From the IMG/VR virus record IMGVR_UViG_3300020213_000005, positions 1-43,262 of that record: 43,262 nucleotides of DNA; one strand, given 5' to 3'. Source of the stretch: a virus. Below, piece after piece: positions 1-43,262 of the stretch. The notes under the pieces were generated by a model. It was not told the DNA's origin. It did not search any database and worked only from the letters and a program-made list of their open reading frames with translations. The position numbers and the translations under genes were made by a program. How positions within the stretch are numbered: position 1 is the stretch's first letter; the number at the start of each line of letters is the position of its first letter.

Positions 1-127
1 CTTGTGCCTCTTCTTGAAATCCATAAGCAGTGCCGCCGTTTAAACGTGGGAAGTTAACGTCCCCTTGAGGATCATCAACGGGCACGCCCATACCGGGCCC
101 TAATCTCAGGGTGACAGGATTTAAACC
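1..127. repeat. Left copy of 127-bp terminal overlap
   Basis: Bases 1-127 are identical to 43136-43262. The overlap lies inside the portal coding sequence and keeps its reading frame when the ends are joined. A length of exactly 127 equals a common maximum assembler k-mer, so this most likely marks a circular contig rather than a biological direct terminal repeat. Confidence 0.95.
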
Positions 128-14549: not shown

Positions 14550-15226
14550 TGCATATTGTAATTGAAGGTATCGACGGATCCGGTAAATCAACTCTGGTTA
14601 ATGCTCTTTATGAGCGTGTGCAAGCCGATCATTCCTTCTCTCCATGGATCTATAAGACCAGAGAACCCGGTTCCGATATTGTAGGCCCATGTAATATCAA
14701 ATTTAAACGTAAAGGTTTAGACGTTCGAGAGATCGTTTTAAATGATACAGTTCTCACCCCGTTTCAACGAGAGCTTTTATTCTATGTAGATGCAGATCAG
14801 CATACTCAATTTATTAAGGACCAAGGCCCAGCGATCATTATCAGTGATCGCGGTGTATGGAGCCATTTGGCTTATGCGTACGCAACTCTGAAAACTAAAC
14901 AAATGACCTACGAGCAATACTTGCTCTGTAAAGACCTCATTAAACAAACCTGTTCAAAACCCGATATTATTGTTTATCTTAAGGGAGACAGGGAATTGAT
15001 GAGCACAAGATTAGCAAGCAAGAAAAAAGACGTTATAGAATCCAACGGCCCAGAATTTTTTGATTCCGTCAGTAGTTGTTATGCCGAATTATCTTGCGAA
15101 CCTAAGTACGCAAAATCATTGCTGATTTTAGAGGCTAAAAATAGTACTTCCCATAACACAGAATCTGTAGTAACCTATCTAAAGGAGAACTACACTTATG
15201 AACAACTTAAATCAGGTAGTATATAA
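14549..15226 (+). CDS. tmk: Thymidylate kinase
   Basis: 225 aa. Phosphorylates dTMP to dTDP for DNA synthesis. P-loop EGIDGSGKST (residues 6-15), the TREPG motif (38-42), and SDRGVWSHLAYAY with the catalytic DR pair. The C-terminal part is shorter and less conserved. It overlaps the upstream zinc-type gene by one base and the recombinase by 29 bases. It fits with the HD nucleotidase (21816) in shaping the dNTP pool. Activity on a modified nucleotide cannot be excluded. Confidence 0.85.
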   Translation: MHIVIEGIDGSGKSTLVNALYERVQADHSFSPWIYKTREPGSDIVGPCNIKFKRKGLDVREIVLNDTVLTPFQRELLFYVDADQHTQFIKDQGPAIIISDRGVWSHLAYAYATLKTKQMTYEQYLLCKDLIKQTCSKPDIIVYLKGDRELMSTRLASKKKDVIESNGPEFFDSVSSCYAELSCEPKYAKSLLILEAKNSTSHNTESVVTYLKENYTYEQLKSGSI

Positions 15227-15947
15227 ATATGTCAACCGAAAATCAACTAGTTGGGCTGATTCTACTATACATACTGCTTATGCTAAGCTCTGTGTGGTTG
15301 ATAGCCAGGGACTTGAACCGGAGAGGCTCTACACAGCCCTCAAGACGAGAGGCCTTTCTGACTATACTATTAAGTCCTATTTTATACTTGCGCAATGTTT
15401 TGAAGAAGAAACTAAAAAGACGTCCAAAATCCGGGAATGGTTGCAAAATCATAAACTTAAGTTTAAGAATTGCTACAAGAAAAAACTCCGATCGCTGACG
15501 GAAGAGCAGTTCGATGCGGCTCTTAAAGCCGCCCCTTTACACCTATACAATTTTTTAGTTCTAATGGGAAAAGCAGGCCTTCGGAAGAGTGAAGCTCTTA
15601 ATGTGAGCTGGTCTGATATCAAAGATGGCATGCTTGAAGTTAGAGCCGGCAAGGGCGGTAAACAGCGTTTTGTCCCATTTGATAGGAAATGGTTACGAGG
15701 TGATACTGGTGAGGTGGGAGTCGTCGTAGTTAAAAACCTCCAATACGCAAAGTTCTTCAGTGAGAGTCTGACCGGTTTTACTCCTCACGATTGTCGGGTT
15801 TATTACGCAACTAAGGTCGTTAATATTGTAGGCATGTCAATTGAAGATGCACGAGATCTCTTAGGACATTCAGATATTAAGACGACAGCGAAATATCTTA
15901 GGGCATCTAAAGATAAACAACACCGCTTGATTATGGAAAACTTTTGA
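15198..15947 (+). CDS. Tyrosine recombinase / integrase
   Basis: 249 aa with AAGGAG before the ATG inside the end of tmk. All catalytic residues are visible: R129 (AGLRKSEAL), K155 (GKGGKQRF), H197 and R200 (PHDCR), H224 (LLGHSD) and Tyr233 (KYLRA). A short SAM-like core-binding domain (about 20-95) precedes the catalytic domain. Length is close to XerC/D types with no arm-binding domain. It could integrate the phage or resolve genome multimers; no CI-like repressor or excisionase was recognised. A palindrome pair downstream (16008-16042) is a candidate recombination or operator site. Confidence 0.88.
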   Translation: MNNLNQVVYKYVNRKSTSWADSTIHTAYAKLCVVDSQGLEPERLYTALKTRGLSDYTIKSYFILAQCFEEETKKTSKIREWLQNHKLKFKNCYKKKLRSLTEEQFDAALKAAPLHLYNFLVLMGKAGLRKSEALNVSWSDIKDGMLEVRAGKGGKQRFVPFDRKWLRGDTGEVGVVVVKNLQYAKFFSESLTGFTPHDCRVYYATKVVNIVGMSIEDARDLLGHSDIKTTAKYLRASKDKQHRLIMENF

Positions 15948-16278: not shown

Positions 16279-16653
16279 ATGATTAATAAAAATTTTATTG
16301 AAGAAACAAACAAACTCATAGATTTGTTTAAAACTCGCAAGATCTCGATTCATAACGGAAATCTTATCGTTGTGAAAGTTAAAGCAGACGAAGTGACAAA
16401 GGGCGGTATTATTGTACCCAAAAAAGCCAACGAGATCAAGAACTACCACAACGGGTTAGCACGCATTGTAGCAGTCGCTGATAATGCTGATAGTTGTTAC
16501 GAAGTCGGTGATTATATCATCCACTCACATGAAGCGCGGTACAAGATTTTTGAAGAGGCTTTACGGGAGTTCTTAGGTAGCTTTATTGAGGCGGATATGT
16601 TATTCTCAGTACAGGACAATAACGTCATTTTAAGCATGAAAGAGGTTTTATAA
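16279..16653 (+). CDS. GroES-like co-chaperonin
   Basis: 124 aa. The order of elements matches GroES/Cpn10: GNLIVVKVKADE, a mobile-loop-like TKGGIIVPKK whose IIV would contact GroEL, then NGLARIVAVA, VGDYIIHS, and IEADMLFSVQ at the end. It is slightly longer than GroES and divergent, as T4 gp31 is. Phages use such proteins to adapt host GroEL to fold their capsid protein. It overlaps the lipoprotein gene start by one base. No GroEL gene is present. Confidence 0.8.
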   Translation: MINKNFIEETNKLIDLFKTRKISIHNGNLIVVKVKADEVTKGGIIVPKKANEIKNYHNGLARIVAVADNADSCYEVGDYIIHSHEARYKIFEEALREFLGSFIEADMLFSVQDNNVILSMKEVL

Positions 16654-17174
16654 TGGAAAAGTTTATCACAGGTTTAGTTTTCGTTCTTGGTATGGTTGGT
16701 TGTGGGACTGATTACTATGAGTCTAAAAATTTAGTTGGACCTCAAGGTGAGACAGGAGCAACTGGAGCAACTGGATCAACTGCAGCGCCATGCACCGTGA
16801 TAACAGTATCATCGGCCGGGTTTGCACCAAACGGCGGTGCTTTGATTACCTGCGGTCTTAGCAGAGTACTTGTGCTAAACGGAGCGACAGGTCAAGCAGG
16901 TCAAGCAGGTCAAGCAGGTCAAGTAGGTGAAGATGGTCAAGATGGTCAATCTAGTCCTTATATGATCACAGAGATCGTTGATCCTTGTGGAGATGCTCCG
17001 GGAATTTATGATGAAGTATTAATTCGCATCGGATCTATGTTATTAGCATCGTTTAGTGATAATGCTAACGGTAAAAACACACGATTATCACTTCTTGTAT
17101 CAGGTAACTACGTAACAACGGATGGCTCTAATTGTCACTTTTCAGTGGATAATAACAACAATGTCACCTACTAA
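16653..17174 (+). CDS. Collagen-like repeat lipoprotein
   Basis: 173 aa. Signal peptide ending VLGMVGC, probable lipidation at Cys17; then a Gly-X-Y stretch (GPQGETGATGATGST), a short Cys-containing strand domain, a second Gly-X-Y run with four near-identical GQA/GQV triplets, and a C-terminal domain from ITEIVDPCG to the end. As I recall, this combination is frequent among Bdellovibrionota lipoproteins, so the gene may come from the host lineage. It would be surface-tethered in infected cells. GQA triplets lie in a slippage-prone 9-base repeat. Confidence 0.75.
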   Translation: MEKFITGLVFVLGMVGCGTDYYESKNLVGPQGETGATGATGSTAAPCTVITVSSAGFAPNGGALITCGLSRVLVLNGATGQAGQAGQAGQVGEDGQDGQSSPYMITEIVDPCGDAPGIYDEVLIRIGSMLLASFSDNANGKNTRLSLLVSGNYVTTDGSNCHFSVDNNNNVTY

Positions 17175-17376
17175 ATTGTTCCCAGAACCTAGACTTTTAA
17201 AAATAAACAAGGATGGTTACATACAGTTCACTGCTAAGCAATGGTCCTTTTTGGTTAAAATGACGAAAACGAAAGCTAAGACTGTTAAAGGAAAAATGAA
17301 AGCGGTATCGAAATTTGTTCATCTAGCCATAGGTAATAGGTTAAAAAGATCCAATGAAACTGACTCAAATAGATAA
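17161..17376 (+). CDS. Small basic protein
   Basis: 71 aa from the ATG at 17161 (MSPTKLF), overlapping the lipoprotein gene by 14 bases; an ORF extending to 17122 would overlap more and has no ribosome site. Strongly Lys-rich (KMTKTKAKTVKGKMKAVSK). It may bind nucleic acid. Overlaps the next gene by 23 bases. Moderate doubt that it is expressed. Confidence 0.5.
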   Translation: MSPTKLFPEPRLLKINKDGYIQFTAKQWSFLVKMTKTKAKTVKGKMKAVSKFVHLAIGNRLKRSNETDSNR

Positions 17377-18604
17377 TGCAACTTGCATATACGAGGTAAA
17401 CGGTTTCAAGCTTCTGTGTGATCCGTGGTTAACAGATGGAGCTTTTTACGGATCGTGGGGCCATTATCCACCCCTTGTTACGACTTTTGATTTTGTTAAA
17501 GATGTCGATGCTTTGTTTATCAGCCAGTTAAATCAAGATCGTTGTGATGAAGCTTCTCTTAAGCAGTTTCGTCCTGATATCCCCGTTATCATATTGGATA
17601 GGGAACCGAACTTTTTAAAAAGAAAACTGACAGCATTAGGTTTTACAAACCTGACTCTTGTTAGAGATAAAGAAACCATAACAATAGGCCCTATGGAGAT
17701 CACTATTTATGCCAGTTTCGTTGAACATCCTTTTGATAACATTGATAGTGGAAATCTGCTTGATAGCGCCATTGTGGTTGAAGCCAACGGAAAGACGATC
17801 TTGAATGCGAATGCTAATACACTTGATATTTCAGCTGCAGAAATGCTGTATGATCATCATGGTGCCTTTAGTGTTGTTCAGCTTAAGGATAGTCTTGCTA
17901 GCTCTTATCCCTCTTGTTTTGCTAATCTTAGTGATGAGGAAAAGCTATCAGAAAACAAGAGACTTATTGGCCGGCAATTAACCGCCATGTGTGATGTGGC
18001 GGAAAGCTTAAAAGCTGAGTGGTTTCAACCATTTGCAGGAGACTACCAGCTTATGGGGTCGCTTATTAACAAAAATAAACATCTGGGTTTGGCCGGTAAA
18101 CAGTATAGCGCTTGGTTCATAAGCAACCGCGGTATTAAGCCTTTAATCCTAAACGAGCAAGGATCTATCGATCTTATCACAGGTGATTTAAAAGCCACTT
18201 ATCGGAAGAATATTGAGAGTTATGCAAGTTGGCAAGATCGCGTTAGTTCCTCTAAGTTTGACTACGAAAACGACCCACTTGTTAAGTTTGTGGATTTAAC
18301 TGATTTGATACGAGCAGCAGTTGGTAATGTTAAAAAATATCAGGAGCAGTTTAACTTTTACCCGAAACAAAGTATAGTTTTAAGAGATAAAGAGACTGGC
18401 GAGTCTTATGCATTCAATTTAGGCGGGACCTATGGTCATGAACGTCCTGTGCTTGAGATTAATATGGATAATCGCTTGCTGAAACGTATATTAACAAAAC
18501 AGAGTGATTTTTATACGGCGGATATGGGCTGTCATATAGATTTTAATCGAGAAGGCCCTTATAACCCTTATGTTCATATGATAATGAGTTTCTTTCATGT
18601 TTAG
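17354..18604 (+). CDS. CMP-sialate hydroxylase-like metallo-beta-lactamase-fold protein
   Basis: 416 aa. Blocks match the MBL-fold part of animal CMP-N-acetylneuraminate hydroxylase (CMAH) as I remember it: LLCDPWLTDGAFYGSW near residue 20, DALFIS (52-57), RPDIPV (73-78), a VVEANGKTILN strand and an RQL...FQPFAGDY region. The N-terminal Rieske domain of CMAH is absent. Where the MBL fold has HxHxDH this protein has QLNQDR (58-63), keeping only the Asp, so the usual dinuclear metal site appears lost. It may bind a sugar nucleotide or act without metal. With the Maf-like and NeuB-like genes it suggests a nonulosonic-acid theme. Confidence 0.7.
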   Translation: MKLTQIDNATCIYEVNGFKLLCDPWLTDGAFYGSWGHYPPLVTTFDFVKDVDALFISQLNQDRCDEASLKQFRPDIPVIILDREPNFLKRKLTALGFTNLTLVRDKETITIGPMEITIYASFVEHPFDNIDSGNLLDSAIVVEANGKTILNANANTLDISAAEMLYDHHGAFSVVQLKDSLASSYPSCFANLSDEEKLSENKRLIGRQLTAMCDVAESLKAEWFQPFAGDYQLMGSLINKNKHLGLAGKQYSAWFISNRGIKPLILNEQGSIDLITGDLKATYRKNIESYASWQDRVSSSKFDYENDPLVKFVDLTDLIRAAVGNVKKYQEQFNFYPKQSIVLRDKETGESYAFNLGGTYGHERPVLEINMDNRLLKRILTKQSDFYTADMGCHIDFNREGPYNPYVHMIMSFFHV

Positions 18605-18621
18605 TTTTAAGGAGAGTAAAA

Positions 18622-20439
18622 TTGAAGGATCTATATGCTTGTGATATTGAAACGACCGGTCTTGATAGGTTCACTGATAAGATTCTGTGCATCGGTGTCT
18701 ATTCGCCCTCCCATAAGTTTGTGTTTGATAACACCACTCAGTTTAGTGAGTGGTTAGAGAGGAATCCTCGTGCCCAGTTTATCTTTCATAACGGAAGTTT
18801 CGATATCGGATTTTTACGACATAATAACTTGGACGTTCGTCATCGCTGGTTCTATGACACTCGCTCTATCGCTAGTATACTTACTCCTCGACCTGATAAG
18901 CTCGGACTCGAATTTTTAGCGGAGGCATATCTTGGACAAGTACCTTACAAACTTAATAGAACCAAAATGGCTGAATATAGTAAATCAGAAGTCAGAGACT
19001 ATTGTCTCAAGGACTGTGAACTTACATATAAACTATTCACCTACCTGGAACAACAGCTCAACAACAAGGCCCATGTGTTTTCAGACAATTGGGTTATGCC
19101 CGCAACTAAGCTTTGCTCTGATATGGAATACGATGGAGTCTACATTGATAAAGTAGGACTGGATCGCTATCAAGCCGTAGCAATCATTAAAAGGGACCAG
19201 TTACTAGTTGAGTTAAGAGAGCAAGCTAAGTTAGCTATCGTTTACTACCATGAACTTCAAGTAAAGGAAGTTAATAAACAATATAGGGAGAAATATGAAA
19301 AAGCCAAAGAGAAAACAAAAGACCAGAAAAAATGCCTCAATCGTTACGCCCTTCTTGAGAGTACGGCTGTCAGCCGTCTTGAGCCGTTTAATTGGAATAG
19401 TCCGAAGCAGCTTCAGTGGTTGCTTAAAGACTATTACGCTCTTGATGTCTCGAATAAAGATGGTGAGGATTCTACCTCAGAAGCGGTCCTCAGATCTCTC
19501 GATCATCCGGTGTGTCAAAAGCTCTGCGATTATCGGGAAATTGAAAAACTTGTTGGTACATGTATCCCTGCGCTCACGGAGAATCAAAAACCTGACGGCG
19601 CTGTTCATACGCACTATCATATTGGTGGCACGAGGACAGGACGTCTTTCTAGTTCAGCTCCAAACCTACAACAAATACCAAGACTTCCTGAGTTACGATC
19701 TTATGTGCAAGCTTCTACAAGCGCCCGAGTACTGGCAACTATCGACTATGCCCAAATTGAAGTTAGGATCATCGCTGAGATCACGAAAGAAACGGAGCTG
19801 ATCAATGCGTTCAAAGACAAAATCGACCCCTATTCCGTTATCGCACAAAAGTTACTTAAGATTAATTGCGACGTGCGAGACATTAAGACGAAATTTAAAA
19901 AAGAGAGGGATGTGTGTAAAACTGCCGGACTCTCTATCTTATATGGTACCGGAGCTGCAAAGCTACAGGAGGTCCTTAATAAGGAGCTTAACAAGAGCTA
20001 TAGCGTCTACGATTGTAAAAAGTTCATAGAAGAGTATCGAAATAGTTTCCCAGCCGTAAAAGCATTTAAACAAAAACTAGAGCAATCACTGGCTAACAAG
20101 AAGGTTTATTATAACCTTCTTGGCAGGCCTTTTTCTATTCTTGATAACGAAATGCTTTACATGACAAGCCTTAACACGCTTGTTCAAGGGTCGGCTTCTG
20201 ATATGGTTGTCAAAGCTGCTTTAATGGTGAAACAAAAGTTACAGGAACTAAAAGTAGACTTCAATTTTCGTATGTTAATTCATGATGAAATGGTGATAGA
20301 ATTACCAAAAGATGAAGCAGATCTGTTAGTTACCGAGGTCATAGTTCCCACACTAACAACAGAGCTTGCTAAGGATTTACAGTTGACAGTACCCCTCGAT
20401 GTAGAGTATTCTATTGATAGGAGCTGGCACAAACCATGA
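18622..20439 (+). CDS. Family A DNA polymerase with 3'-5' exonuclease
   Basis: 605 aa replicative polymerase. Proofreading domain: DIETTG (D8, E10), HNGSFD (56-61) and YCLKD (Y127, D131). Polymerase motifs: A DYAQIEVR (D375), B R429...K433...Y441-G, and C HDE (554-556). The 5'-3' exonuclease domain of Pol I is absent, as in T7. The start is TTG at 18622, supported by AAGGAGAG at ideal spacing; no ATG lies between it and the DIETTG motif. In motif B the usual Asn-Phe is Gly-Leu, a variation seen in phage polymerases that can affect dideoxynucleotide discrimination. Confidence 0.95.
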   Translation: MKDLYACDIETTGLDRFTDKILCIGVYSPSHKFVFDNTTQFSEWLERNPRAQFIFHNGSFDIGFLRHNNLDVRHRWFYDTRSIASILTPRPDKLGLEFLAEAYLGQVPYKLNRTKMAEYSKSEVRDYCLKDCELTYKLFTYLEQQLNNKAHVFSDNWVMPATKLCSDMEYDGVYIDKVGLDRYQAVAIIKRDQLLVELREQAKLAIVYYHELQVKEVNKQYREKYEKAKEKTKDQKKCLNRYALLESTAVSRLEPFNWNSPKQLQWLLKDYYALDVSNKDGEDSTSEAVLRSLDHPVCQKLCDYREIEKLVGTCIPALTENQKPDGAVHTHYHIGGTRTGRLSSSAPNLQQIPRLPELRSYVQASTSARVLATIDYAQIEVRIIAEITKETELINAFKDKIDPYSVIAQKLLKINCDVRDIKTKFKKERDVCKTAGLSILYGTGAAKLQEVLNKELNKSYSVYDCKKFIEEYRNSFPAVKAFKQKLEQSLANKKVYYNLLGRPFSILDNEMLYMTSLNTLVQGSASDMVVKAALMVKQKLQELKVDFNFRMLIHDEMVIELPKDEADLLVTEVIVPTLTTELAKDLQLTVPLDVEYSIDRSWHKP

Positions 20440-20705
20440 TTATTAACGTACTAGGACGAGAAGTTGAGATTGAGTATTGTTCTCATGCGAGAATTACCGC
20501 TCTCTCTGAAGACCCAGCGTCTATCGGTTACTTTGATGGTAATAAGATTTATATCAAGGATACGCTTGTCGGGGATCAGAGACAAAGGGTTTTAAAACAC
20601 GAACTTGTACACGCCGTCTTAGCATTTAGCGGATTGACAAATTTACTTGCAGACGAGCTAGAAGAAGCTATAGCGGATGCTATGGAAGGGTTACCTCAAA
20701 TATGA
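20436..20705 (+). CDS. Small HExxH metallopeptidase-like protein
   Basis: 89 aa. HELVH at 55-59 is a zinc-binding HExxH, followed by ELEEAIADAM whose Glu could be the third ligand, the layout of ImmA/SprT-type small peptidases. Overlaps the polymerase end by four bases and the next gene by four. Substrate unknown; it may process a phage or host regulator. Confidence 0.65.
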   Translation: MIINVLGREVEIEYCSHARITALSEDPASIGYFDGNKIYIKDTLVGDQRQRVLKHELVHAVLAFSGLTNLLADELEEAIADAMEGLPQI

Positions 20706-20947
20706 TTTTTAAAGTTACTTTGCTAGTGGTGTTCTTTCTGGTTTTAACCTGCATGGTGGGTTATTTTGATAAACAAATAAGAGTCTTAGAAGACCGCTTA
20801 AATGTTTATCAAGCTTCTTTGAAATTGACTGATGATAGTCTGATGGAGAAGTGCGACCGGAGTGATTTAGATACGCTGGAAGAACGGATAGCAGGTCTTG
20901 AATTTGACTATCAGGATTTGCGGTTTTTAGTGAGAGGGGGGAAATAG
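20702..20947 (+). CDS. Membrane-anchored coiled-coil protein
   Basis: 81 aa. One N-terminal membrane helix (VTLLVVFFLVLTCMVGYF) then a charged coiled coil to the end, likely facing the periplasm or cytoplasm as an oligomer. Shape resembles i-spanins, but it sits in the replication block far from the lysis cassette, so another role is more likely. Confidence 0.55.
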   Translation: MIFKVTLLVVFFLVLTCMVGYFDKQIRVLEDRLNVYQASLKLTDDSLMEKCDRSDLDTLEERIAGLEFDYQDLRFLVRGGK

Positions 20948-20949
20948 TT

Positions 20950-21168
20950 ATGCCTACATATCATTTTGAATGCAAGAACTGTAAAAGAACGACTGAGGAG
21001 TTTTATTCGATGCTTAAGAAGCCGGCTGCTATTGTTTGCCCACATTGTTTAGAAGTGGCTGATACAGTCGTTTTGGGCGGTAACGGGTTTTTGTTAAAAG
21101 GTCACGGTTGGGCTTTCGATCGCTATGCCGGAGACAGTAACTTTAAATTTTCAAAGGACGACAAATGA
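20950..21168 (+). CDS. FmdB-type zinc-ribbon protein
   Basis: 72 aa. MPTYHFEC with CKNC (8-11) and CPHC (30-33), the standard FmdB/CxxC zinc-ribbon layout. Members occur in bacteria and phages, with regulatory roles proposed for some. Overlaps the RuvC-like gene by four bases. Confidence 0.75.
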   Translation: MPTYHFECKNCKRTTEEFYSMLKKPAAIVCPHCLEVADTVVLGGNGFLLKGHGWAFDRYAGDSNFKFSKDDK

Positions 21169-21629
21169 CTGAAACTTTGTTAGCGATAGATCCAGGTAGC
21201 AACTCGATGGGCGTCGCTTTGTTTGAAGCTGGCAGGCTTGTTGCAGCTACCTCCCTTAAAAGTGACAAGATATCGCCGTTAGAACGCCGTTTGGATATGG
21301 CTCATAAAATTAAAGATTTGGTCGATATCTCTCATAAGTTCACCTCAGAGGAGCCTTTGTTATTAGGTCGTAATAATAACGGAATGCAACGTCTTCTCGG
21401 CTACATCGAGCTTATCACTGAAGGTAAAGTAGAGATGATCCACCCGATGACCTTAAAAAAAATAATGGGCTCTGGCAGCTCTGATAAGCTTGATATGGCT
21501 TTAGCAGCCGGTGATATGCTAACAGACACCGAACAAGAGATTATGGCGAAGCTGATAGCGAACGAGGATTTTGACGCTACCGACGCCGTCTGCGTCGGGC
21601 TTGCTTATCTTAAAAAGGTGCGGGTATGA
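21165..21629 (+). CDS. RuvC-like Holliday junction resolvase
   Basis: 154 aa. LLAIDPGSNSMGVALF (Asp9) is the first RuvC catalytic motif; SEEPLLLG supplies a Glu, HPMTLKKIM and DKLDMA follow, and DATDAVCVGLAYL gives the C-terminal acidic pair. It should cut recombination junctions before packaging. Length is close to E. coli RuvC. It lies in a run of overlapping genes with the HD enzyme. Confidence 0.82.
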   Translation: MTETLLAIDPGSNSMGVALFEAGRLVAATSLKSDKISPLERRLDMAHKIKDLVDISHKFTSEEPLLLGRNNNGMQRLLGYIELITEGKVEMIHPMTLKKIMGSGSSDKLDMALAAGDMLTDTEQEIMAKLIANEDFDATDAVCVGLAYLKKVRV

Positions 21630-21835
21630 AATTTATCAAACATATCAGGAATACCGATGTTTGTTTTGAGGTTTTCACTTCGATTGAAAGATCGTCAGGC
21701 GCTCTTCAAGTCACAGGGCTTTGGTGGAATATTGTGATGGGTGATCCTTTTCCGCTTTTAGGTACCAGAGAAACGGTTCAAATTAAAAAAGAAGATAGAC
21801 CAGATTGGAAACCTTATGAACCTCGATCAACTTAA
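21626..21835 (+). CDS. Hypothetical protein
   Basis: 69 aa, overlapping the RuvC-like gene (ATGA) and the HD gene by 20 bases. Strand-rich N-terminal part and an acidic/proline C-terminus; no motif recognised. Confidence 0.55.
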   Translation: MKFIKHIRNTDVCFEVFTSIERSSGALQVTGLWWNIVMGDPFPLLGTRETVQIKKEDRPDWKPYEPRST

Positions 21836-22277
21836 AATGGCCATGAATCTGCATAACGTCCGTCGTTTTCAGACTCACCGTCTTCAAGCCTCTAAATCAG
21901 TCGCAGAACATAGTTTTCGTGTTGCGGCTCTCTATGCTTTTTTCGGTGGTAAAGAGATTTTACCGGCTTTGTTACACGATATTGAAGAATCGATAACCTC
22001 TGATATACCATCTCCGGTCAAGAAGAATTTAAAAGGACTCGAGATCTACGAGGCTATGAGACCTCAATTTGAAGACATTAAAGAGCAGAGACTAGGCAAA
22101 CTTGCAGATAAGTTAGAGCTTGTCTTGGATCTTCGTGAGCAGTTATCTGATGTGGGCCGCCTTCCAAAAGGTCTGATGGATATTTATGAAGCCGAGTTAG
22201 AGCTGGCTTTAGATATAGCTAAAGAGTTAGGTATTGCAAAAGAAGTTAAAAAACTACTAAAGGAGATAAGTCAATGA
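21816..22277 (+). CDS. HD-domain 5'-deoxynucleotidase (YfbR-like)
   Basis: 153 aa. R17/R18, H32 in AEHSFR, H54-D55 in LLHDIEES followed by SDIPSPVK, and D98 in LADKLE match the YfbR family, which dephosphorylates dNMPs. Such phage enzymes adjust the nucleotide pool, sometimes excluding a normal base in favour of a modified one; nothing here shows DNA modification. Co-transcribed with the RuvC-like gene. Confidence 0.82.
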   Translation: MNLDQLKMAMNLHNVRRFQTHRLQASKSVAEHSFRVAALYAFFGGKEILPALLHDIEESITSDIPSPVKKNLKGLEIYEAMRPQFEDIKEQRLGKLADKLELVLDLREQLSDVGRLPKGLMDIYEAELELALDIAKELGIAKEVKKLLKEISQ

Positions 22278-22495
22278 ATTTAATCGTAAATAGCATAACA
22301 GTTCCCAAGGAAAACGTAGTCGTCGGTATCCGTGCAGCGTTGATGGTAGACGATGTTAACGGTAATGTTTTAGTTATTCAAAGCGAAGTAACCCAACTTC
22401 GTATCAAGCTATCAGACCTCGTTGATTTTATCGCTTATCAGAAAGCTGAAGCTGACAGGTCTTCAGGATCTAATGGGGAGGATGTAAATGAGTAA
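22274..22495 (+). CDS. Hypothetical protein
   Basis: 73 aa, overlapping the HD gene (ATGA) and the next gene. Val/Ile-rich strands in the first 45 residues, then a Ser/Gly/acidic tail. Unknown function. Confidence 0.55.
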   Translation: MNLIVNSITVPKENVVVGIRAALMVDDVNGNVLVIQSEVTQLRIKLSDLVDFIAYQKAEADRSSGSNGEDVNE

Positions 22496-22724
22496 AACTC
22501 ATATTTTAAAACAAATCTATAAGACGTTGGCTGTTAAGCTTAACAAGCATCCGACGTATCAAGATTTGAAAAGGATCAGAGTTTCAGAAAGATCTGTCAG
22601 GGATGGTTTTATGACTCTCTCTAATCTTCGTAAAGAAGTCGGAGAAATACCGGGCATTGTGGTCCGTAACCCTGATCTAGAGACCGTTTACCGGTTACTT
22701 AAACAATCAAAAGGATTAAAATAA
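22488..22724 (+). CDS. Hypothetical protein
   Basis: 78 aa, preceded by GGGGAGG. Basic, helical; the RIRVSERSVRDGFMTLSNLRKEVG segment could be a DNA-binding helical bundle. Its last base overlaps the next start. Confidence 0.55.
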   Translation: MSKTHILKQIYKTLAVKLNKHPTYQDLKRIRVSERSVRDGFMTLSNLRKEVGEIPGIVVRNPDLETVYRLLKQSKGLK

Positions 22725-23458
22725 TGCTTAAAAAAATACTGTTAATTCCTGATACCCACAGCCCGTACGAAGACAAGAAAGCCTGGCAGCTTTTGTTAAA
22801 AGCTGGCAAAGCTCTTAAACCGGATATCATAGTTATTCAAGGTGATTTTTTTGATATGTACGCCGCATCGTCTCATAGTAAAGATCCTTCCAGGGCCTTT
22901 CAGCTGGAGATGGAGATTTCAGAAACTAAAAAACGTCTGGCTGAGGTAAAGGCATTAAAGGCTAAAAAGAATATCTTTATTTCAGGTAACCACGAAGACA
23001 GGCTAGAGCGTTATTTAAAAGATAAAGCCCCTGAACTTCATTCCGTTATCTCTATACCGAAATTGCTTGGTATTACAAAAGACTTTATTTATGTTCCCTA
23101 CAAGGAGCACTATCGACTTGGTAAATTAAACCTCACACATGATACCGGAACCGCTGGTCGTTATGCTCACTATAAAGCTTTAGATGCTTTTCAGCATAAT
23201 GTAGCTATCGGCCATACTCACCGTATGGGTTACGCCGTTGAGGGTAATGCTAAAGGTGAGAGACATGTAACAGCCATGTTCGGTTGGTTAGGTGATATCA
23301 ACAAAGTCGATTATATGCACAAAATTAAATCCACCAGAGATTGGAGTCTTGGTTTTGGCATTGGTTATTTGGACGAGAAAACCGGCAATGTGTATCTCGT
23401 CCCGGTTCCCATTATCAACTATACTTGTTTAATTGAAGGTAATTTAATAAGAGTATGA
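22724..23458 (+). CDS. Calcineurin-like metallophosphoesterase
   Basis: 244 aa. Full motif set: IPDTHSP (D10, H12), QGDFFD, SGNHEDR, LTHD and GHTHR, giving the two-metal site of this superfamily. Phage members include protein or cyclic-nucleotide phosphatases and DNA nucleases; substrate cannot be read here. Overlaps the following gene by four bases. Confidence 0.88.
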   Translation: MLKKILLIPDTHSPYEDKKAWQLLLKAGKALKPDIIVIQGDFFDMYAASSHSKDPSRAFQLEMEISETKKRLAEVKALKAKKNIFISGNHEDRLERYLKDKAPELHSVISIPKLLGITKDFIYVPYKEHYRLGKLNLTHDTGTAGRYAHYKALDAFQHNVAIGHTHRMGYAVEGNAKGERHVTAMFGWLGDINKVDYMHKIKSTRDWSLGFGIGYLDEKTGNVYLVPVPIINYTCLIEGNLIRV

Positions 23459-23667
23459 GTAACACCGACAGACAAAATCTTTATGTTAAGAACGTTATCA
23501 GAGATCTGAATATCGATTTAGAATCAGTTATCAATAATAGCGCCTCAGCCTCAGGCTGGTGTCATCTTCATAAAGAAACGCTGTACCTCGCACTTGAAGT
23601 TAAAAGTCTTCGCAAAGAAATAGCTAAGCTTAAAAAAAGCCAGCTGAAAGTAGTTAACGATGAGTGA
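23455..23667 (+). CDS. Hypothetical protein with C-terminal coiled coil
   Basis: 70 aa; the last 30 residues (LEVKSLRKEIAKLKKSQLKV) look like a coiled coil. Overlaps its neighbours by four and eight bases. Unknown function. Confidence 0.55.
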   Translation: MSNTDRQNLYVKNVIRDLNIDLESVINNSASASGWCHLHKETLYLALEVKSLRKEIAKLKKSQLKVVNDE

Positions 23668-25447
23668 TTTAATTCTCCCCAAAGCATATCAAAACCCAAT
23701 TTTGGACGCTAACTTAGAGGCGCTGTTCAAGCGTTATCCCTACGAGCGTTCAAGGCTAGAGCTTCTCCTCTCTCAGCCTGCGGAAGACCGTGCGGTAGCA
23801 GCAGTTACGCTACCGCCGGCCCCTCCGAACACACCAATGCGAGCCATTGTGCTTGCGGGTATCGGTTCTCCTACCTTTTTAGCTGACATTTTAAACGATC
23901 CGGTCAATAGAGAAGATAACTTCATTGTCTATATTGTTGAAAACAATCTTGACTTTCTTCGCTTTTGTTTTCAATACGCAAACCTAACGCAAATCATTAA
24001 CCTCCCTAAAACGGAATGGTTGTTGATGAAGACGGAAGAATCTATTAAACCGGCTTTCTTTAGTATTATGCAGAGAGAGCACGTAGCAGGTATGGCTTTC
24101 AATGTGTTTCTTCTTGAGACGCATATCCCACAACCTCCTGAGGTAAGTGCTTTCTACAAAAAAATTGAGCTTATATACAACGAGACCATTCAGCATGTGA
24201 TGCATAATTTTGGTCGTATTACGGACAGCCTTGACGGGGTTAGGGCATCACTTTTGAATAAAGAAGCCATCTTAAACAACCCTGGCATCGAAGATTTAAA
24301 AGGCGCGTTTCGCCGTAGACCTGCACTGGTTGTAGGGGCCGGTCCTTCTTTAGATTCAGAGTTAGAAAACATCAAAAAACACAACGATAAGTTTGTTGTT
24401 ATTGCAGCTGATGCGGCCCTAAAGCCGCTGTTAAAAGCCGGCATTCGCGTCGATTACATCACCTCAATTGAGAGACTTAACGCTTATCAAAAACCCTTCT
24501 TCGAAGGCCTCGGTAAGATTGAAACCGAGCTGATCGCGTTCCCGGTAATTCAACCAGAGCTTTTCAGCATCTATCCAGGCCCTGCCCGCATTGTTTACCG
24601 AAATTACTCGTTCTTCTCCTATTTTGAAAAGAGCTGGCCTAAAGGTATTCTTAAATGTGGCGGGTCTACCTCCCATCTAGCTATCAGACTAGCGGACTGG
24701 TTCGGTTGTTCTCAGATCTTCCTGATTGGTATTGATAGTAACTACGAAGAAAAAGATGGTCTTTTCCGCTCGCATTGCTCTAATACTGGCTATCAAGAGT
24801 GGGGAGAATTCTTCCCTATAGATGAGTTCCAAAAGACACGACGTCATCAAGGGCCCATGAAAGCCCTTAATAACCTAGGTGAGGAAACCTCAACCAACCT
24901 CACCTACTACCAGTGGATTAAAGAATATACAGGCGAATTAGCAGAGATCGGACAGCGAGCTGTCATAACTAACTGTAGTGCTAAAGGCCTTAGAATTGAA
25001 GGGATTCCGTATAAACCTTTAACGGAGTGCGTTAAACCTTTTGATGATCAACCGGTCGTAAAACCTTTAAGACCTAAGCCGGTCTTCAATAGAACTTTTA
25101 ACCATAAAATCGCGGTTCAGAATTTTGAAGCTTGGTTAAAGCTGGTTCAGTCTGGTATAAATGAATGTGACAATCTTTTAGCACAAGAGGAAATGGATTC
25201 ATCTAGATTTGAAGCACTGATTTATGTATATAATTTTAAGGTTTGTGTAGACCCACTGTTCGTCTCGTTTGTGGTTCAGTGCTGTGCTAAGGAGTATTTC
25301 GAGTTTGAAAACAAGTGGTGGGCCTTATCAAAAGACTGGGCCCATCAAAAGAGAGAGAAAGTTCAGATTACGAAGGAGCGATTTCAGCTTTTCGATGATG
25401 TTATTAAACAATTGTTAGCAATATTTAGGGAGACCAGTAATGTCTAA
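23660..25447 (+). CDS. Maf/DUF115-type glycosyltransferase-like protein
   Basis: 595 aa. The central LVVGAGPSL (223-231), IAADAALKPLL (249-259) and VDYITSIE (264-271), followed by GGSTSHLAIRLADWFGCSQIFLIGID, are the hallmark of DUF115/Maf (motility accessory factor) proteins. Cellular relatives transfer pseudaminic or legionaminic acid to flagellin. The N-terminal 200 residues and C-terminal helices fit the family's length. Context: in the same strand block as the CMAH-like and NeuB-like genes. The phage target could be a virion or cell-surface protein; that is inferred. Overlaps the neighbouring genes by eight bases on each side. Confidence 0.75.
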   Translation: MSDLILPKAYQNPILDANLEALFKRYPYERSRLELLLSQPAEDRAVAAVTLPPAPPNTPMRAIVLAGIGSPTFLADILNDPVNREDNFIVYIVENNLDFLRFCFQYANLTQIINLPKTEWLLMKTEESIKPAFFSIMQREHVAGMAFNVFLLETHIPQPPEVSAFYKKIELIYNETIQHVMHNFGRITDSLDGVRASLLNKEAILNNPGIEDLKGAFRRRPALVVGAGPSLDSELENIKKHNDKFVVIAADAALKPLLKAGIRVDYITSIERLNAYQKPFFEGLGKIETELIAFPVIQPELFSIYPGPARIVYRNYSFFSYFEKSWPKGILKCGGSTSHLAIRLADWFGCSQIFLIGIDSNYEEKDGLFRSHCSNTGYQEWGEFFPIDEFQKTRRHQGPMKALNNLGEETSTNLTYYQWIKEYTGELAEIGQRAVITNCSAKGLRIEGIPYKPLTECVKPFDDQPVVKPLRPKPVFNRTFNHKIAVQNFEAWLKLVQSGINECDNLLAQEEMDSSRFEALIYVYNFKVCVDPLFVSFVVQCCAKEYFEFENKWWALSKDWAHQKREKVQITKERFQLFDDVIKQLLAIFRETSNV

Positions 25448-25829
25448 GTTCATTAATAAAGAGACCAAGTCTTATTTAGAGAGTAAAATGGGCTCAACTC
25501 TACCTCAACAGATTCAAAACATACGGGAGAGAATCGATGTAGACGGGCTTTATTTGGACGGTAAAATAAGTGAGACCAAAGCAACCTTGGATAACAGAAT
25601 AAGCGAGACCAAAACAGAGTTGGGTAACAAGGTAAATTTTGTGTATGGGGCTATTTTACAAATCCAAGAGGAGCTCGGCGGGCTTAATGCTGAGGTATTT
25701 AGTACTGTTCAGGGCCGACAAGTCGATATGTTTAATGATATCCGCGCTTTAAAACGCGCTGTAAAGATTCTTTGTGTCGTATGCGCGGTCCTCCTAGTTG
25801 GAGTAGTATTAACATGGCTGATAAAATAA
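25440..25829 (+). CDS. C-terminally anchored coiled-coil protein
   Basis: 129 aa. Repeated ISETKATLDN/ISETKTELGN segments and a long amphipathic helix, then one C-terminal membrane helix (VKILCVVCAVLLVGVVLTWLI). A tail-anchored topology with the coiled coil inside the cell is likely. Overlaps the Maf-like gene by eight bases. Unknown role. Confidence 0.6.
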   Translation: MSKFINKETKSYLESKMGSTLPQQIQNIRERIDVDGLYLDGKISETKATLDNRISETKTELGNKVNFVYGAILQIQEELGGLNAEVFSTVQGRQVDMFNDIRALKRAVKILCVVCAVLLVGVVLTWLIK

Positions 25830-26071
25830 TAGATATAAATCCGGATAAACGAATTTCTAAGGATTCTTTAGACCGAATCCAGGAGATTGTTAAATCCCTA
25901 TCCGTTGACTCTTTAGATAGTCTTATCATTATCCATAGAAACCGCGGTGAGGGAGCTAGTTTAGAAGCCTACGGTTATGATTGGGATATCCTAGGCAGAT
26001 CACAAGGTTACCTAGAATTCCTACGGGCACAGCTGTTAGAAGAAGACACAGAGATAGAGCAGAATGACTGA
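25814..26071 (+). CDS. Hypothetical protein
   Basis: 85 aa from the ATG at 25814 (MADKIID), with GGAG upstream; it overlaps the preceding gene by 16 bases. Acidic and helical with no motif recognised. Confidence 0.6.
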   Translation: MADKIIDINPDKRISKDSLDRIQEIVKSLSVDSLDSLIIIHRNRGEGASLEAYGYDWDILGRSQGYLEFLRAQLLEEDTEIEQND

Positions 26072-26297
26072 GGCTGAACTTGATACCCAGCTAAAGGCTG
26101 CTACGAATCAGTTTTCAGTCTGGTGGGATAACAAGTTTCCTGATGATAGCGCCCCAAAGAAGCTCTATTACCGCATTAAGTACTTGCAAGGTTATCTAAA
26201 GGCTGTTAAACTGTTTAGAGACGAATCTTTTGTCCAGCACCAAGTAGACCTTATCAGAAAACAATATGGTAAAGGGACGCGTTACAACCCATTTTAA
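26064..26297 (+). CDS. Hypothetical protein
   Basis: 77 aa, AGAGCAG upstream, overlapping the previous gene by eight bases. Aromatic helical protein (FSVWWDNKF...). Unknown. Confidence 0.6.
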   Translation: MTEAELDTQLKAATNQFSVWWDNKFPDDSAPKKLYYRIKYLQGYLKAVKLFRDESFVQHQVDLIRKQYGKGTRYNPF

Positions 26298-26308
26298 GGA
26301 GTCGAAGC

Positions 26309-26521
26309 ATGCCGGTTCACACTATCAAGTTTAACCTGCCAGAAGAGCAAGAAGAGTTAGAGGCGTTTCAAACAGGCGTGCAGGCTCATATTGTTATAGA
26401 GGATGTTTTTAACTACCTCCGATCAAAACTTAAGTATGGTACGCCAAGCAAGACCGAGGCCCGTGTCTATACAGAGTTACGAGATAAACTTTGTGAGCTG
26501 ATGAAACAGCAGGGATTATAG
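26309..26521 (+). CDS. Hypothetical protein
   Basis: 70 aa with AAGGAG before the ATG. Acidic (LPEEQEELEAF) then a helical segment. This shape (strand, acidic loop, helices) is common among small phage proteins; function unknown. Confidence 0.6.
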   Translation: MPVHTIKFNLPEEQEELEAFQTGVQAHIVIEDVFNYLRSKLKYGTPSKTEARVYTELRDKLCELMKQQGL

Positions 26522-26535
26522 TAAGGAGATTTAAG

Positions 26536-26778
26536 ATGCCATACATCACCGATTATGATAAAGCACTGACAGAAGCTGTAGGACCGGCGACGCCTGGCGA
26601 ACTTAACTACGCGATTACACGACTTATTAAACAGTATTTAGCCACTCATTTGATACTTAATTACCAGACAATTAACGACGTCGTAGGCGCCTTAGAAGGC
26701 GCTAAGCTTGAGTTTTACAGAAGAATCGCGGTCCCATACGAGAATGAAAAGATCGTTATCAACGGAGACGTTTACTAA
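26536..26778 (+). CDS. Hypothetical protein
   Basis: 80 aa with AAGGAG before the ATG; its last base overlaps the next start. Helical; no motif recognised. Confidence 0.6.
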   Translation: MPYITDYDKALTEAVGPATPGELNYAITRLIKQYLATHLILNYQTINDVVGALEGAKLEFYRRIAVPYENEKIVINGDVY

Positions 26779-27167
26779 TGCACCGCTGGGGAGATAATAC
26801 CGTAGATTGGGACGGGATAGAGGGCGCTGCAGAGCTAATTAGTTCCTTCAGCCGGCGTTGGGGTAGACTTGGCGGGCAGTCTAAAGAGAAGTACGGCACC
26901 GTTCGTTTTTATGCAATTTTTGGTAACCTCAGTCTTCACACCTTAATCTATCCCGGTTATGCCTATAACCAGTTTCCGAAGTGGCTTTGGGTATTCGATC
27001 TATGCTATATCGGACCTTTCCTGAACGCCGTTTTTGGTGGTGTGTTTACTCGGTGGCAGGCTGTTGTTTACAGACAGGCGTATCAGAAGGCACTCAAAAA
27101 ATGGCCTCACCTGAGAGATGAAATCTTGTCAGCAGCAGATTACGAAGAATTCTTAGAGGGACTATGA
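26778..27167 (+). CDS. Conserved phage protein of the QSKEKYGTVR type
   Basis: 129 aa. The GRLGGQSKEKYGTVRFYAIF segment (residues 29-48) is one I recall from hypothetical proteins in many unrelated phages. The middle is hydrophobic (WLWVFDLCYIGPFLNAVFGGVF) and may touch the membrane; the C-terminus is acidic. Function unknown. Overlaps the NeuB-like gene by four bases. Confidence 0.65.
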   Translation: MHRWGDNTVDWDGIEGAAELISSFSRRWGRLGGQSKEKYGTVRFYAIFGNLSLHTLIYPGYAYNQFPKWLWVFDLCYIGPFLNAVFGGVFTRWQAVVYRQAYQKALKKWPHLRDEILSAADYEEFLEGL

Positions 27168-27835
27168 ACAAAGTTAGACTGATTGCTGAGCTTGGTAGTT
27201 GTCACATGGGCAAGCTTGATCGCATTAAAGAGGCCGTAGATCGCTGTAAAGAATCGGGTATTGATGCTTTAAAGCTTCAGCTGTTTCCAAACGAAGCACC
27301 CTACGTGCCGACTAACATTCACCTGTCGCAAAACATGTTTCAGAGAGCTTTTGAGTATGGGAAGTCGGTAGGACTTCCCGTCTCTGCTAGTGTGTTTGAT
27401 ATGGATTCGCTGATTTTCCTTCAGAATCTAAACCCTGAGTTTATCAAACTTTCGTTCAGTAAGAAGCACTACGCCGACATTTCAGAGGAGATTAACTGGG
27501 TTGAGTCAATGCATTTAAAAGGTATTGAAGCCATTGTTTCGTGTGATGTAATGAGTGATCATAAAATCTCAGCTACGGCCACTAAACTCTACTGTATCCC
27601 TGAGTATCCCGTCCGCTACGAAATTTCGTTCGACGAGCTCTTCCCCCGTTTTGATGGATTCAGTGATCACACTTTAGGTATTAGACAGACTAAGAGAGCT
27701 ATTGATGCTGGTGCTAAGCTCGTTGAGAAGCACGTGAAGCTTGGTTATGAGGACGAGACTTGTCCCGATTCTCGTTTTTCTGTCCCGATCGAAGTATTCG
27801 GACAACTACGAAAATACCGGCCTACTAAGGCTTAA
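27164..27835 (+). CDS. Short NeuB-like sialic acid synthase domain
   Basis: 223 aa TIM-barrel protein matching NeuB: LIAELGSCHMG (E9), DALKLQLF (K37), EFIKLS (K95), the YP pair (148-149), GFSDHTLG (167-170), EKH (188-190) and PDSRFS (D202). NeuB condenses PEP with an N-acetylated hexosamine to give sialic or related nine-carbon acids. It is about 120 residues shorter than cellular enzymes, lacking the C-terminal SAF domain. By my alignment the Ser and Glu of the canonical K-x-x-S-G-E are Phe and Lys. The metal-binding histidines remain. Activity is therefore uncertain. Last gene of the rightward block, overlapping the endolysin gene tail to tail by 11 bases. Confidence 0.78.
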   Translation: MNKVRLIAELGSCHMGKLDRIKEAVDRCKESGIDALKLQLFPNEAPYVPTNIHLSQNMFQRAFEYGKSVGLPVSASVFDMDSLIFLQNLNPEFIKLSFSKKHYADISEEINWVESMHLKGIEAIVSCDVMSDHKISATATKLYCIPEYPVRYEISFDELFPRFDGFSDHTLGIRQTKRAIDAGAKLVEKHVKLGYEDETCPDSRFSVPIEVFGQLRKYRPTKA

Positions 27836-28220: not shown

Positions 28221-28456
28221 CGGACCGCTGGTGGAAGAAAATGCGGTTTAGTCTTAACGACCCGTTTAACACCACAGTCTGGGAGGTAGTACTCGATTCG
28301 ATCTGGGTAGATGAGCATTTGGGTCTCACGGCAAATCTTGCCGTCTTGCTCGATGTGCTGTTGCTCCGTCAGATCAATTATATTGGTAGCCTGAGTGTGC
28401 ATAGTGCAGCCGATCATGCCAAATTGTGCTATTAATACTGATATTAAATGGCGCAT
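28217..28456 (-). CDS. Small lipoprotein in lysis cassette
   Basis: 79 aa. Signal peptide with lipobox-like FGMIGC, so Cys17 is probably lipidated. The mature part has two more cysteines. It lies between endolysin and serine protease and is additional to the o-spanin at 29199. Role unknown; it could be an extra outer-membrane lysis factor or an exclusion lipoprotein. Confidence 0.6.
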   Translation of the reverse strand: MRHLISVLIAQFGMIGCTMHTQATNIIDLTEQQHIEQDGKICRETQMLIYPDRIEYYLPDCGVKRVVKTKPHFLPPAVR

Positions 28457-29202
28457 TAATGAGCACTCAAAAAGGTTTTAATGGTTTCAAGTGGGACCGC
28501 ACTACCCCAGTTGGTTTGATTACTGGATGCGAAAATAACGCCGGTCACATTACCAAAACTGTTAACCATCGCGGAGCCGCTGTTCCCTGGAAAAATAGGG
28601 ATATTAGTTTTTATGGCTTGGTGCTCTAAAACACACATTGGAAAGGGACCAAATAAAGTGGGAACCACGATGGGTTTAAGACGAGGCCCTTTACACTGCT
28701 CGAAGGGAATACCGGTCAGTATATAAACTGTCCCAAGACCTTTTAAATAACCACGACTAAAGTCCATCTCTTCGCCTAAAGGAAAGCCAAGGACGAAATT
28801 CTCGTCTAAGATGGAATACGACGAGGCTAGGGATAGACCGCCGTAGCCTTCAAGTCCCTCAACCAGACACAAATCATTCTCGGTGTAAACTTCGATGACC
28901 CTTCGCGGTATTGATCGACCAGAATGTAGTTTTATCATTAACACTCCGTCTTTCTGAAGATCGCAAACGTGAGCATTGGTTAAAGTGTAGACCCTGCCGC
29001 TGGGAGCTTTCACTTGAAAACCAGTCGCCGAGCCTTGGTGCTCGGCTCCTTCTGGGTTTGAGATGAAGATGGTCTGAGATCCTACCTTATCAATCAAATA
29101 GCTGTTATGGATAGGTCTGGCTGATAATGACACACTGAAAATAGCAATGCCTAACAAGATTAGTTTAAAGTAACCGGTTTTTGATTTTTTGTTGTGTTTC
29201 AT
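28456..29202 (-). CDS. Exported trypsin-like serine protease
   Basis: 248 aa. N-terminal basic stretch and hydrophobic segment (YFKLILLGIAIFSVSLSA) direct export or anchoring. Catalytic triad: H78 in TNAHVC, D110 in ENDLCLV, and S208 in FPGNSGSAM. Fold is chymotrypsin/S1-type without a PDZ domain. It lies in the lysis cassette between o-spanin and a lipoprotein, overlapping the former by four bases, so it is expressed late in the periplasm. It might degrade envelope proteins during lysis, or mature a virion component; the first is better supported by position. Confidence 0.82.
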   Translation of the reverse strand: MKHNKKSKTGYFKLILLGIAIFSVSLSARPIHNSYLIDKVGSQTIFISNPEGAEHQGSATGFQVKAPSGRVYTLTNAHVCDLQKDGVLMIKLHSGRSIPRRVIEVYTENDLCLVEGLEGYGGLSLASSYSILDENFVLGFPLGEEMDFSRGYLKGLGTVYILTGIPFEQCKGPRLKPIVVPTLFGPFPMCVLEHQAIKTNIPIFPGNSGSAMVNSFGNVTGVIFASSNQTNWGSAVPLETIKTFLSAH

Positions 29203-42272: not shown

Positions 42273-43262
42273 CTAGCCTATCTTCGGGTTAAGTTGTCCG
42301 CCTGCTTGTCCTAGATCAGATTGTTGTTGAGCTACGCCGTTGGGCGCTCCTGCTCCTGCTGCTAATTGGCCTGCCAAAGCGGGGTTAGTTAACCCTGATT
42401 GGATTAAGGGGTTTTGAGCCTGAGCTGCTATAGCTGAAGCCATTTGCTCATGATACTGCCTTACTTTAAGGTAAAGAGGTGTATGGTTCTCTGTTAACCA
42501 GCTGAAATCATCTGACTTTTCGAATTCATCGAAGAACGCGAGCTTTTCTTGGTGTCTATCTTTAACAACAAGAGGAGGCTCTACACCTACGATAATCATG
42601 TTGATTTCGTCTTTAGCATTAAATGGGCTGTCTGGACTATCTGCTGGTTTTGTGATATAAGCATCAATATCCCGAATTTCAAACTTCTGTAGTAAGTTCT
42701 TGTAAGCCGCGTAGAGATTCGACTGGTTGGCGATTCCCGTTTGTAGAGCGATCGGGTTAGCTAATTGCTGTATAAGCATCTGGGCTGTTTCGCGTTCAAT
42801 AGCTTTATTAGAGTTGATCGAGTTGGCCGTAAGTTCAAAATCAGCTTGCCATCTAATAGCTTCTCGGTTTTCAAACCGTTTATAGATATCCCCACCATCA
42901 ACGCCTACTACTCGGATAATAGTTCCGAGAGCGAGAAGGTCTTGAAGCTGAAGATCTAAAATCACCAGATTCTTTTTATAGCCTCGTTGATATCGTTTGA
43001 TGTGAATATCGATATTAGCATTAAGCTCGTTAACAAGCGCTGCAGTGCCTGTAGCAGTTCGAGTCGCGCCTTGTTGCTGAATATTGCCGAGTGTAAATTG
43101 AGTAATACCAGACGCATTTTCCGCATAACGTGTTACTTGTGCCTCTTCTTGAAATCCATAAGCAGTGCCGCCGTTTAAACGTGGGAAGTTAACGTCCCCT
43201 TGAGGATCATCAACGGGCACGCCCATACCGGGCCCTAATCTCAGGGTGACAGGATTTAAACC
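42273..43262 (-). CDS. Portal protein, C-terminal part
   Basis: The last 330 codons before the artificial end, in frame with the fragment at 1-1816; the first 42 codons here are the duplicated overlap. Long helical stretches and a Gln/Ala/Gly-rich C-terminus (QLAAGAGAPNGVAQQQSDLG), typical of portal wing/crown and barrel regions. The ATG at 43226 is internal and not a real start. Confidence 0.8.
   Translation of the reverse strand, partial: GLNPVTLRLGPGMGVPVDDPQGDVNFPRLNGGTAYGFQEEAQVTRYAENASGITQFTLGNIQQQGATRTATGTAALVNELNANIDIHIKRYQRGYKKNLVILDLQLQDLLALGTIIRVVGVDGGDIYKRFENREAIRWQADFELTANSINSNKAIERETAQMLIQQLANPIALQTGIANQSNLYAAYKNLLQKFEIRDIDAYITKPADSPDSPFNAKDEINMIIVGVEPPLVVKDRHQEKLAFFDEFEKSDDFSWLTENHTPLYLKVRQYHEQMASAIAAQAQNPLIQSGLTNPALAGQLAAGAGAPNGVAQQQSDLGQAGGQLNPKIG
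43136..43262. repeat. Right copy of 127-bp terminal overlap
   Basis: Identical to 1-127. Removing one copy gives a circular 43,135-base sequence with an unbroken portal gene. Confidence 0.95.

Follow-up and report, generated by a model that had tools for sequence, protein, structure and literature searches.

In this study, we describe a pair of phage genes, encoding a short sugar synthase (mini-NeuB) and a transferase of the Maf/DUF115 type, which probably forms a nonulosonic-acid (pseudaminic-acid-like) protein O-glycosylation module. Both genes lie in the 43,262-base IMG/VR virus record IMGVR_UViG_3300020213_000005, the whole of which is called the window below. In this module the phage would encode the enzymes for the sugar-forming condensation and for the last reaction, the transfer, with a virion protein as the likeliest target. 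More tentatively, at least two phage lineages with unrelated capsids may have taken over cellular nonulosonic-acid glycosylation to coat their own virions, using a dedicated Maf-family transferase and a synthase that lacks the SAF domain. Bacteria and archaea decorate flagella, capsules and lipopolysaccharide with sialic-acid-like sugars; virion coating, if true, would be this cell-surface chemistry turned into virion modification.

The original prediction for this DNA had joined a CMAH-like, a Maf-like and a NeuB-like gene in one nonulosonic-acid system. All three open reading frames proved real and lie on one strand:

27164..27835, + strand: mini-NeuB, 223 amino acids, a NeuB/PseI-family synthase domain consisting of the TIM barrel only (PF03102, profile and fold model)
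23660..25447, + strand: Maf/DUF115 (MptE-like) putative nonulosonic acid transferase, 595 amino acids (PF01973, partial PseD match)
17354..18604, + strand: putative metallo-beta-lactamase-fold protein (CmlA/SaxA-like) with a degenerate metal motif, 416 amino acids (the "CMAH-like" gene)

The NeuB/Maf pair survived closer analysis and the trio did not. Two further points were absent from that prediction, namely that the synthase is SAF-less and that genes for a CMP-nonulosonate synthetase, PseB and a PseH-like enzyme are missing from the window.

The NeuB-like label was borne out by family, profile and fold. Mini-NeuB matches PF03102 at E 5e-17 (62.6 bits against a cut-off of 22.1), and a profile built from 20 viral members retrieves NeuB, PseI and SpsE from the PDB at 1e-38 to 1e-47, with NeuB/PseI as the sole matches at the sequence cut-off. 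The AlphaFold model has a predicted local distance difference test score (pLDDT) of 92.2, and its top PDB folds in Foldseek are 6NCS (Leptospira NeuB, 2e-14), 8H2C (Campylobacter jejuni PseI, 5e-14), SpsE and Neisseria meningitidis NeuB (NmeNeuB), the DAHP and Kdo8P synthases ranking behind them. Against the equivalog models, the protein scores about equally for PseI (TIGR03586, 67.1 bits) and NeuB (TIGR03569, 61.0 bits), far below the respective cut-offs of 340.25 and 399.65. It is classed here as a NeuB-domain variant rather than a canonical NeuB, because the C-terminal SAF/antifreeze-like domain, which supplies the catalytic arginine, is missing. The SAF domain (PF08666) was found in 0 of 27 viral records selected by NeuB, the same search being positive in 11 of 14 control genomes. 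A SAF domain encoded as a separate downstream reading frame was rejected on the strength of this absence together with inspection by eye of the frames downstream of mini-NeuB in two near relatives, G001 and G002, none of which looked SAF-like.

Much of the active site is nevertheless recognizable. In the profile alignment, the NmeNeuB residues E25, K53, Q55, K129, S154, Y186, S213, H215, E234 and H236 are retained, several of which are listed as active-site residues (PMC6795526). Among these, K53, K129, S213, H215 and H236 (NmeNeuB numbering) are kept in all 20 viral members, and position 25 is E or D. On this alignment, the side of the site that faces phosphoenolpyruvate (PEP) and the metal is preserved and the sugar side is altered.

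The Maf-like label was likewise upheld. The central DUF115/MptE-like domain of the window Maf matches PF01973 at E 6e-37 (127.4 bits against a cut-off of 34.6), and the NCBIfam FlagModPseD domain model matches in part (4e-26, 91.8 bits against a cut-off of 670); by these scores the protein is a distant relative of PseD, outside the named family. Its best solved relative in the PDB is 5MU5 (2e-8; entry titled "Uncharacterized protein"), which we take to be the Magnetospirillum Maf. The MptE structures 8SD5/8SBU also match, weakly and below 5MU5, and this bears on the alternative that the two genes serve some other metabolism, DUF115 being an MptE-like pterin (or thiamin-type) pyrophosphokinase and mini-NeuB a DAHP/Kdo8P-like synthase. 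Such a role would suit the Pfam name MptE-like, the place of DAHP and Kdo8P synthases after NeuB in the fold list, and a CTP-transferase in contig L005 that scores best to Kdo cytidylyltransferases; we consider it improbable, given that 5MU5 outscores MptE, that NeuB/PseI lead by fold and stand alone at the sequence cut-off, and that the partner genes described below are of the PseB, PseH-like, NeuC and NeuA types.

The association of the two families was examined in both directions. When viral contigs were scanned with mini-NeuB, 26 loci emerged; several are nearly identical to one another, and in three the match covers just 40 residues. The NeuB-selected set comprised 27 records, the window included. 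The baseline consisted of 50 viral contigs, 10-65 kb in length, picked with an arbitrary 14-mer. In the reverse search, a profile of short phage DUF115 proteins (alignment A4) recovered 55 viral loci. PF01973 exceeded its cut-off in 8 of the 27 NeuB-selected records and in none of the 50 random contigs (Fisher 1e-4), while NeuB was present in 23 of the 31 contigs found by DUF115 only (five NeuB-chosen ones left out), again against 0/50 (Fisher 8e-14), although both Fisher values overstate independence, since contigs within a lineage share descent, and are only a guide. Besides the window, the eight records comprise every other member of the nearest mini-NeuB group above 20 kb, seven in total. 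Across all 36 of the longer DUF115-found contigs, PF03102 was over the cut-off in 28, in frames of 199 to 371 amino acids. Thus, the co-occurrence that the original prediction had put forward as a check is seen for NeuB and Maf both ways and in two lineages, relative to random contigs, and is missing for the CMAH-like gene (present in one of two near relatives and in 0 of 24 further records).

Other genes of nonulosonic-acid synthesis accompany the pair. PF02348 (CMP-sugar synthetase, NeuA/KdsB type) was over the cut-off in 19/27 NeuB-selected records and 16/36 DUF115-selected contigs, compared with 0/50 random ones, and PF02719 was found in 9/27 NeuB-selected records. In more distant phages, the neighbours include NeuC at equivalog level, a class III aminotransferase, a Gfo/Idh-type oxidoreductase and a 2-hydroxyacid dehydrogenase. 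A separate conserved family, A5 (motif GYKEIHIYGVDMAQ), follows mini-NeuB in L010, L012, L017, L018, L020, L021 and L022, in cassettes with NeuC-, NeuA- and mini-NeuB-type genes; it was rejected as a DUF115 homologue (profile comparison probability 0.2%).

The closest context is provided by two near-complete IMG/VR genomes, G001 (45 kb) and G002 (47 kb), which have 37 and 38 genes in common with the window in largely the same order, including Maf and mini-NeuB. Mini-NeuB ranks 4th in identity among the proteins common with G001 (64%) and 7th among those common with G002 (58%), and Maf ranks 11th (54%) and 15th (49%), values resembling those of terminase and polymerase. Both relatives encode PseB between RuvC-like and HD genes, with scores of 415.8 and 422.5 that exceed the NCBIfam equivalog threshold of 407.75, and a GNAT gene after Maf, which in G001 has PseH as its best match, below the cut-off. 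From the list of PseB, PseC, PseH, PseG and PseF, only PseB and this PseH-like GNAT were seen in the two genomes, PseG not having been searched for specifically. Through these relatives and the co-occurrence counts, the window Maf is genetically linked to nonulosonic acid synthesis genes. A scan with the DNA polymerase for a wider phage family gave no close relative.

The contrast with G001 and G002 raises the question of whether a fuller pseudaminic acid (Pse) module has been reduced to the NeuB/Maf pair, which would be on its way to loss or would only supplement the host pathway. The PseB and GNAT genes of the relatives' neighbourhood are not in the window, and the metal site of the metallo-beta-lactamase-fold gene has already degenerated; against decay, the frames are open and full-length and mini-NeuB is among the better conserved of the common proteins, so that we regard a remnant as having little likelihood.

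Positional evidence on the target of glycosylation comes from a different group of phages. The window Maf is homologous to a capsid-adjacent phage DUF115 family over 241 columns (hhalign probability 97%, E 5.5e-11). A phrog_9953-type major head protein is present in the stretch around 51 of the 55 DUF115 loci, and in 46/55 the DUF115 gene lies exactly two genes downstream of it on the same strand. The capsid protein of the window belongs to another family, and the NeuB and DUF115 pair therefore recurs in two capsid-unrelated lineages. The phrog_9953-type lineage (L157-L211, G003-G008), represented by metagenomic sequences alone, may be a cleaner system for the same biology.

It is this placement of a homologous transferase gene, two positions downstream of the gene for the major capsid protein, that makes the virion the likeliest target. 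Virion glycosylation had been one of the targets named in the original prediction and so gains positional support, while modification of the host surface or of flagellin, also named there, may occur instead. The same enzymes would then act on the host, the phage Maf glycosylating flagellin or another host surface protein, which could mask receptors and so hinder re-adsorption, or change motility. Cellular Maf proteins are held to transfer nonulosonic acids to flagellin, acting in the cytoplasm (PMC13317340), and the window Maf is of the longer, cellular-like form, has a partial PseD match and lies away from the capsid genes, on the replication-side strand, so that a host target is possible too. 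We nonetheless judge it rather unlikely, in view of the homologue in the head gene cluster at 46 of 55 loci of the other lineage and of the scan of window proteins, in which no flagellin or pilin family was matched.

From the homologies, the fold model, the PEP- and metal-side residues, the SAF absence, the reciprocal co-occurrence and the capsid adjacency in the other lineage, all read from sequence, we infer the substrates, the host's supply of the other steps, the transferase activity and the target of the preferred virion-directed module as follows. Mini-NeuB would condense PEP with a host-made six-carbon amino-sugar to a Pse-like nonulosonate. The amino-sugar would be of the 6-deoxy-AltdiNAc type, given that the near relatives also encode PseB together with a PseH-like enzyme. 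The product would then be activated by a host CMP-synthetase; since the window has the synthase and the transferase only, both the precursor and the CMP activation would have to come from the host. Finally, the phage Maf would move the sugar onto a serine or threonine of a protein, most likely a virion protein and perhaps the phage's own capsid.

Besides the shared descent behind the Fisher values, several observations weigh against this module. NmeNeuB S132, E134 and N184 are replaced by F, K and P in mini-NeuB, and Arg314, which in NmeNeuB comes from the SAF-type domain and contacts N-acetylmannosamine (PMC6795526), is gone along with that domain; with these changes, the substrate of mini-NeuB may differ and its activity is not assured. 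The window Maf gene has no capsid gene at its side; it belongs to the genes on the replication-side strand, with mini-NeuB following 1.7 kb further on. The window lacks PF02719 (PseB), PF01041 (PseC type) and PF02348 (PseF/NeuA), as well as the GNAT found in G001 and G002, PseG not having been searched for specifically. Seven more PF01973 matches among the NeuB-selected records are sub-threshold, some of them being A5 members; because A5 was rejected as a DUF115 homologue, all seven were left out of the counts.

The third gene of the original prediction, at 17354-18604, met a different fate. CMAH also has a Rieske domain, and the CmlA/diiron monooxygenase branch of the metallo-beta-lactamase fold is related to CMAH. 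The metallo-beta-lactamase part of the label probably stands, through a weak match to PF13483 below the cut-off and through a two-sequence profile that reaches SaxA, a diiron monooxygenase and CmlA; the identity as CMAH does not, as the Pfam scan of the protein gave no match to a Rieske [2Fe-2S] domain and the metal motif is lost. Where the G002 relative reads ISHLHPDHYD, the window reads ISQLNQDRCD (QLNQDR against HLHPDH), so that the HxHxDH motif has lost its three metal-binding histidines and keeps only one of its four residues. The structure model, with few relatives to draw on, reaches a pLDDT of only 44.5. The sole viral relative is the G002 gene, in the equivalent position upstream of the DNA polymerase (PolA); the viral contig scan gave no match with the protein alone and only G002 with an alignment, and neither G001 nor any of 24 other NeuB-selected records carries the gene. 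A pathway uniting a CMAH-type hydroxylase, Maf and NeuB, for which the common strand and the matches to the CMAH-related branch could be cited, is largely refuted by this G002-only distribution and strikes us as very improbable. Given that distribution, the lost metal motif and the lack of a Rieske domain, the gene was set aside; by its sequence and occurrence it is not part of the nonulosonic-acid module. In the comparison of L034:3-1148 with the window gene, the metal motif is intact in one phage and lost in the other, and the gene adjoins the DNA polymerase.

Among known systems, the nearest is the cellular Pse/Maf flagellin O-glycosylation of Campylobacter, Aeromonas and Clostridium (PseB, C, H, G, I, F and Maf), which shares the NeuB/PseI-type synthase and the Maf transferase with the window, as well as PseB (equivalog level) and the PseH-like GNAT with its near relatives. 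The phage version differs in its SAF-less synthase, in having two of seven steps in the window, in the lack of any flagellin gene seen there, and in the homologous transferase beside capsid genes of another phage lineage. N. meningitidis NeuB (1XUU) has the TIM barrel and the PEP- and metal-side residues in common with mini-NeuB; it differs in its SAF/antifreeze-like domain with Arg314 (PMC6795526) and in E134 and N184, which the phage protein does not keep. Leptospira NeuB 6NCS (290-residue chain), the best fold and profile match, is cellular, about 65 amino acids longer and 22% identical; the match ends at its residue 264, 26 before the chain end, seemingly leaving no room for a SAF domain either. 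Short NeuB frames of 243-245 amino acids also occur in thaumarchaeal (Nitrosopumilus, Nitrosopelagicus) and Pelagibacter contigs (L047-L050), which are probably chromosomal loci and show 25-27% identity to mini-NeuB; those of L048-L050 adjoin PseB-like genes, and NeuA-like genes are found in L048 and L049. Judging from these chains, SAF-less NeuB seems not to be new in itself. A second NeuB-like frame lies at 14595-15428 of the thaumarchaeal contig L049.

Phage glycosyltransferases and cellular Pse/Maf pathways are known. For Huangdivirus, a virus-encoded glycosyltransferase has been proposed to modify capsid proteins, with no sialic-type sugar or NeuB gene mentioned (PMC10848311), whereas in the present case the sugar synthase is also virus-encoded. 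No described phage nonulosonic-acid synthesis module or synthase-Maf pair was found in the literature searched, a weak negative given that most subscription journals were outside its scope. In 50,697 phage records, tblastn with mini-NeuB, Maf and the metallo-beta-lactamase-fold protein, each alone, gave no match, nor did the phage DUF115 family, and the collection holds three mini-NeuB relatives, all distant; with the DUF115 family unmatched and the synthase hardly matched, the module is nearly invisible to present phage annotation. These three are MH319754.1 (H1, Marine virus AG-345-L05), LR756508.1 (H2) and FPLJ01000048.1 (H3, a Moritella viscosa record); one record among them comes from a marine single cell and one from a 484 kb phage. 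Because the synthase recurs with a Maf-family protein, and does so close to the capsid gene in dozens of contigs, the presence of nonulosonic acids on virions becomes directly testable, as does whether they protect virions, alter adsorption or evade host recognition.

The remainder of the window is that of a phage, with a large terminase, a Mu-gpT-like capsid protein, a primase-helicase, a family A DNA polymerase and an exonuclease. Two further features complete the map:

1..127 and 43136-43262, no strand: exact direct repeat of 127 bases
25440..25829, + strand: small protein, coiled-coil-like, whose C-terminal segment is hydrophobic; the gene overlaps the 3' end of the Maf gene

The exact end repeat marks a circular assembly, and the genome is therefore effectively complete. 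The small coiled-coil-like protein has a poorly conserved homologue after Maf in G001. A trypsin-like serine protease with a signal-like N-terminus (PF13365, 6e-12) is encoded at 28456-29202 on the - strand, with no counterpart found in G001 or G002, and a putative lipoprotein with collagen-like repeats (GATGATGST, GQAGQAGQ) at 16653-17174. Lastly, the small gene at 26536-26778 is 54% identical to G002 1886-2134, which lies elsewhere in the G002 genome and points to local rearrangement.

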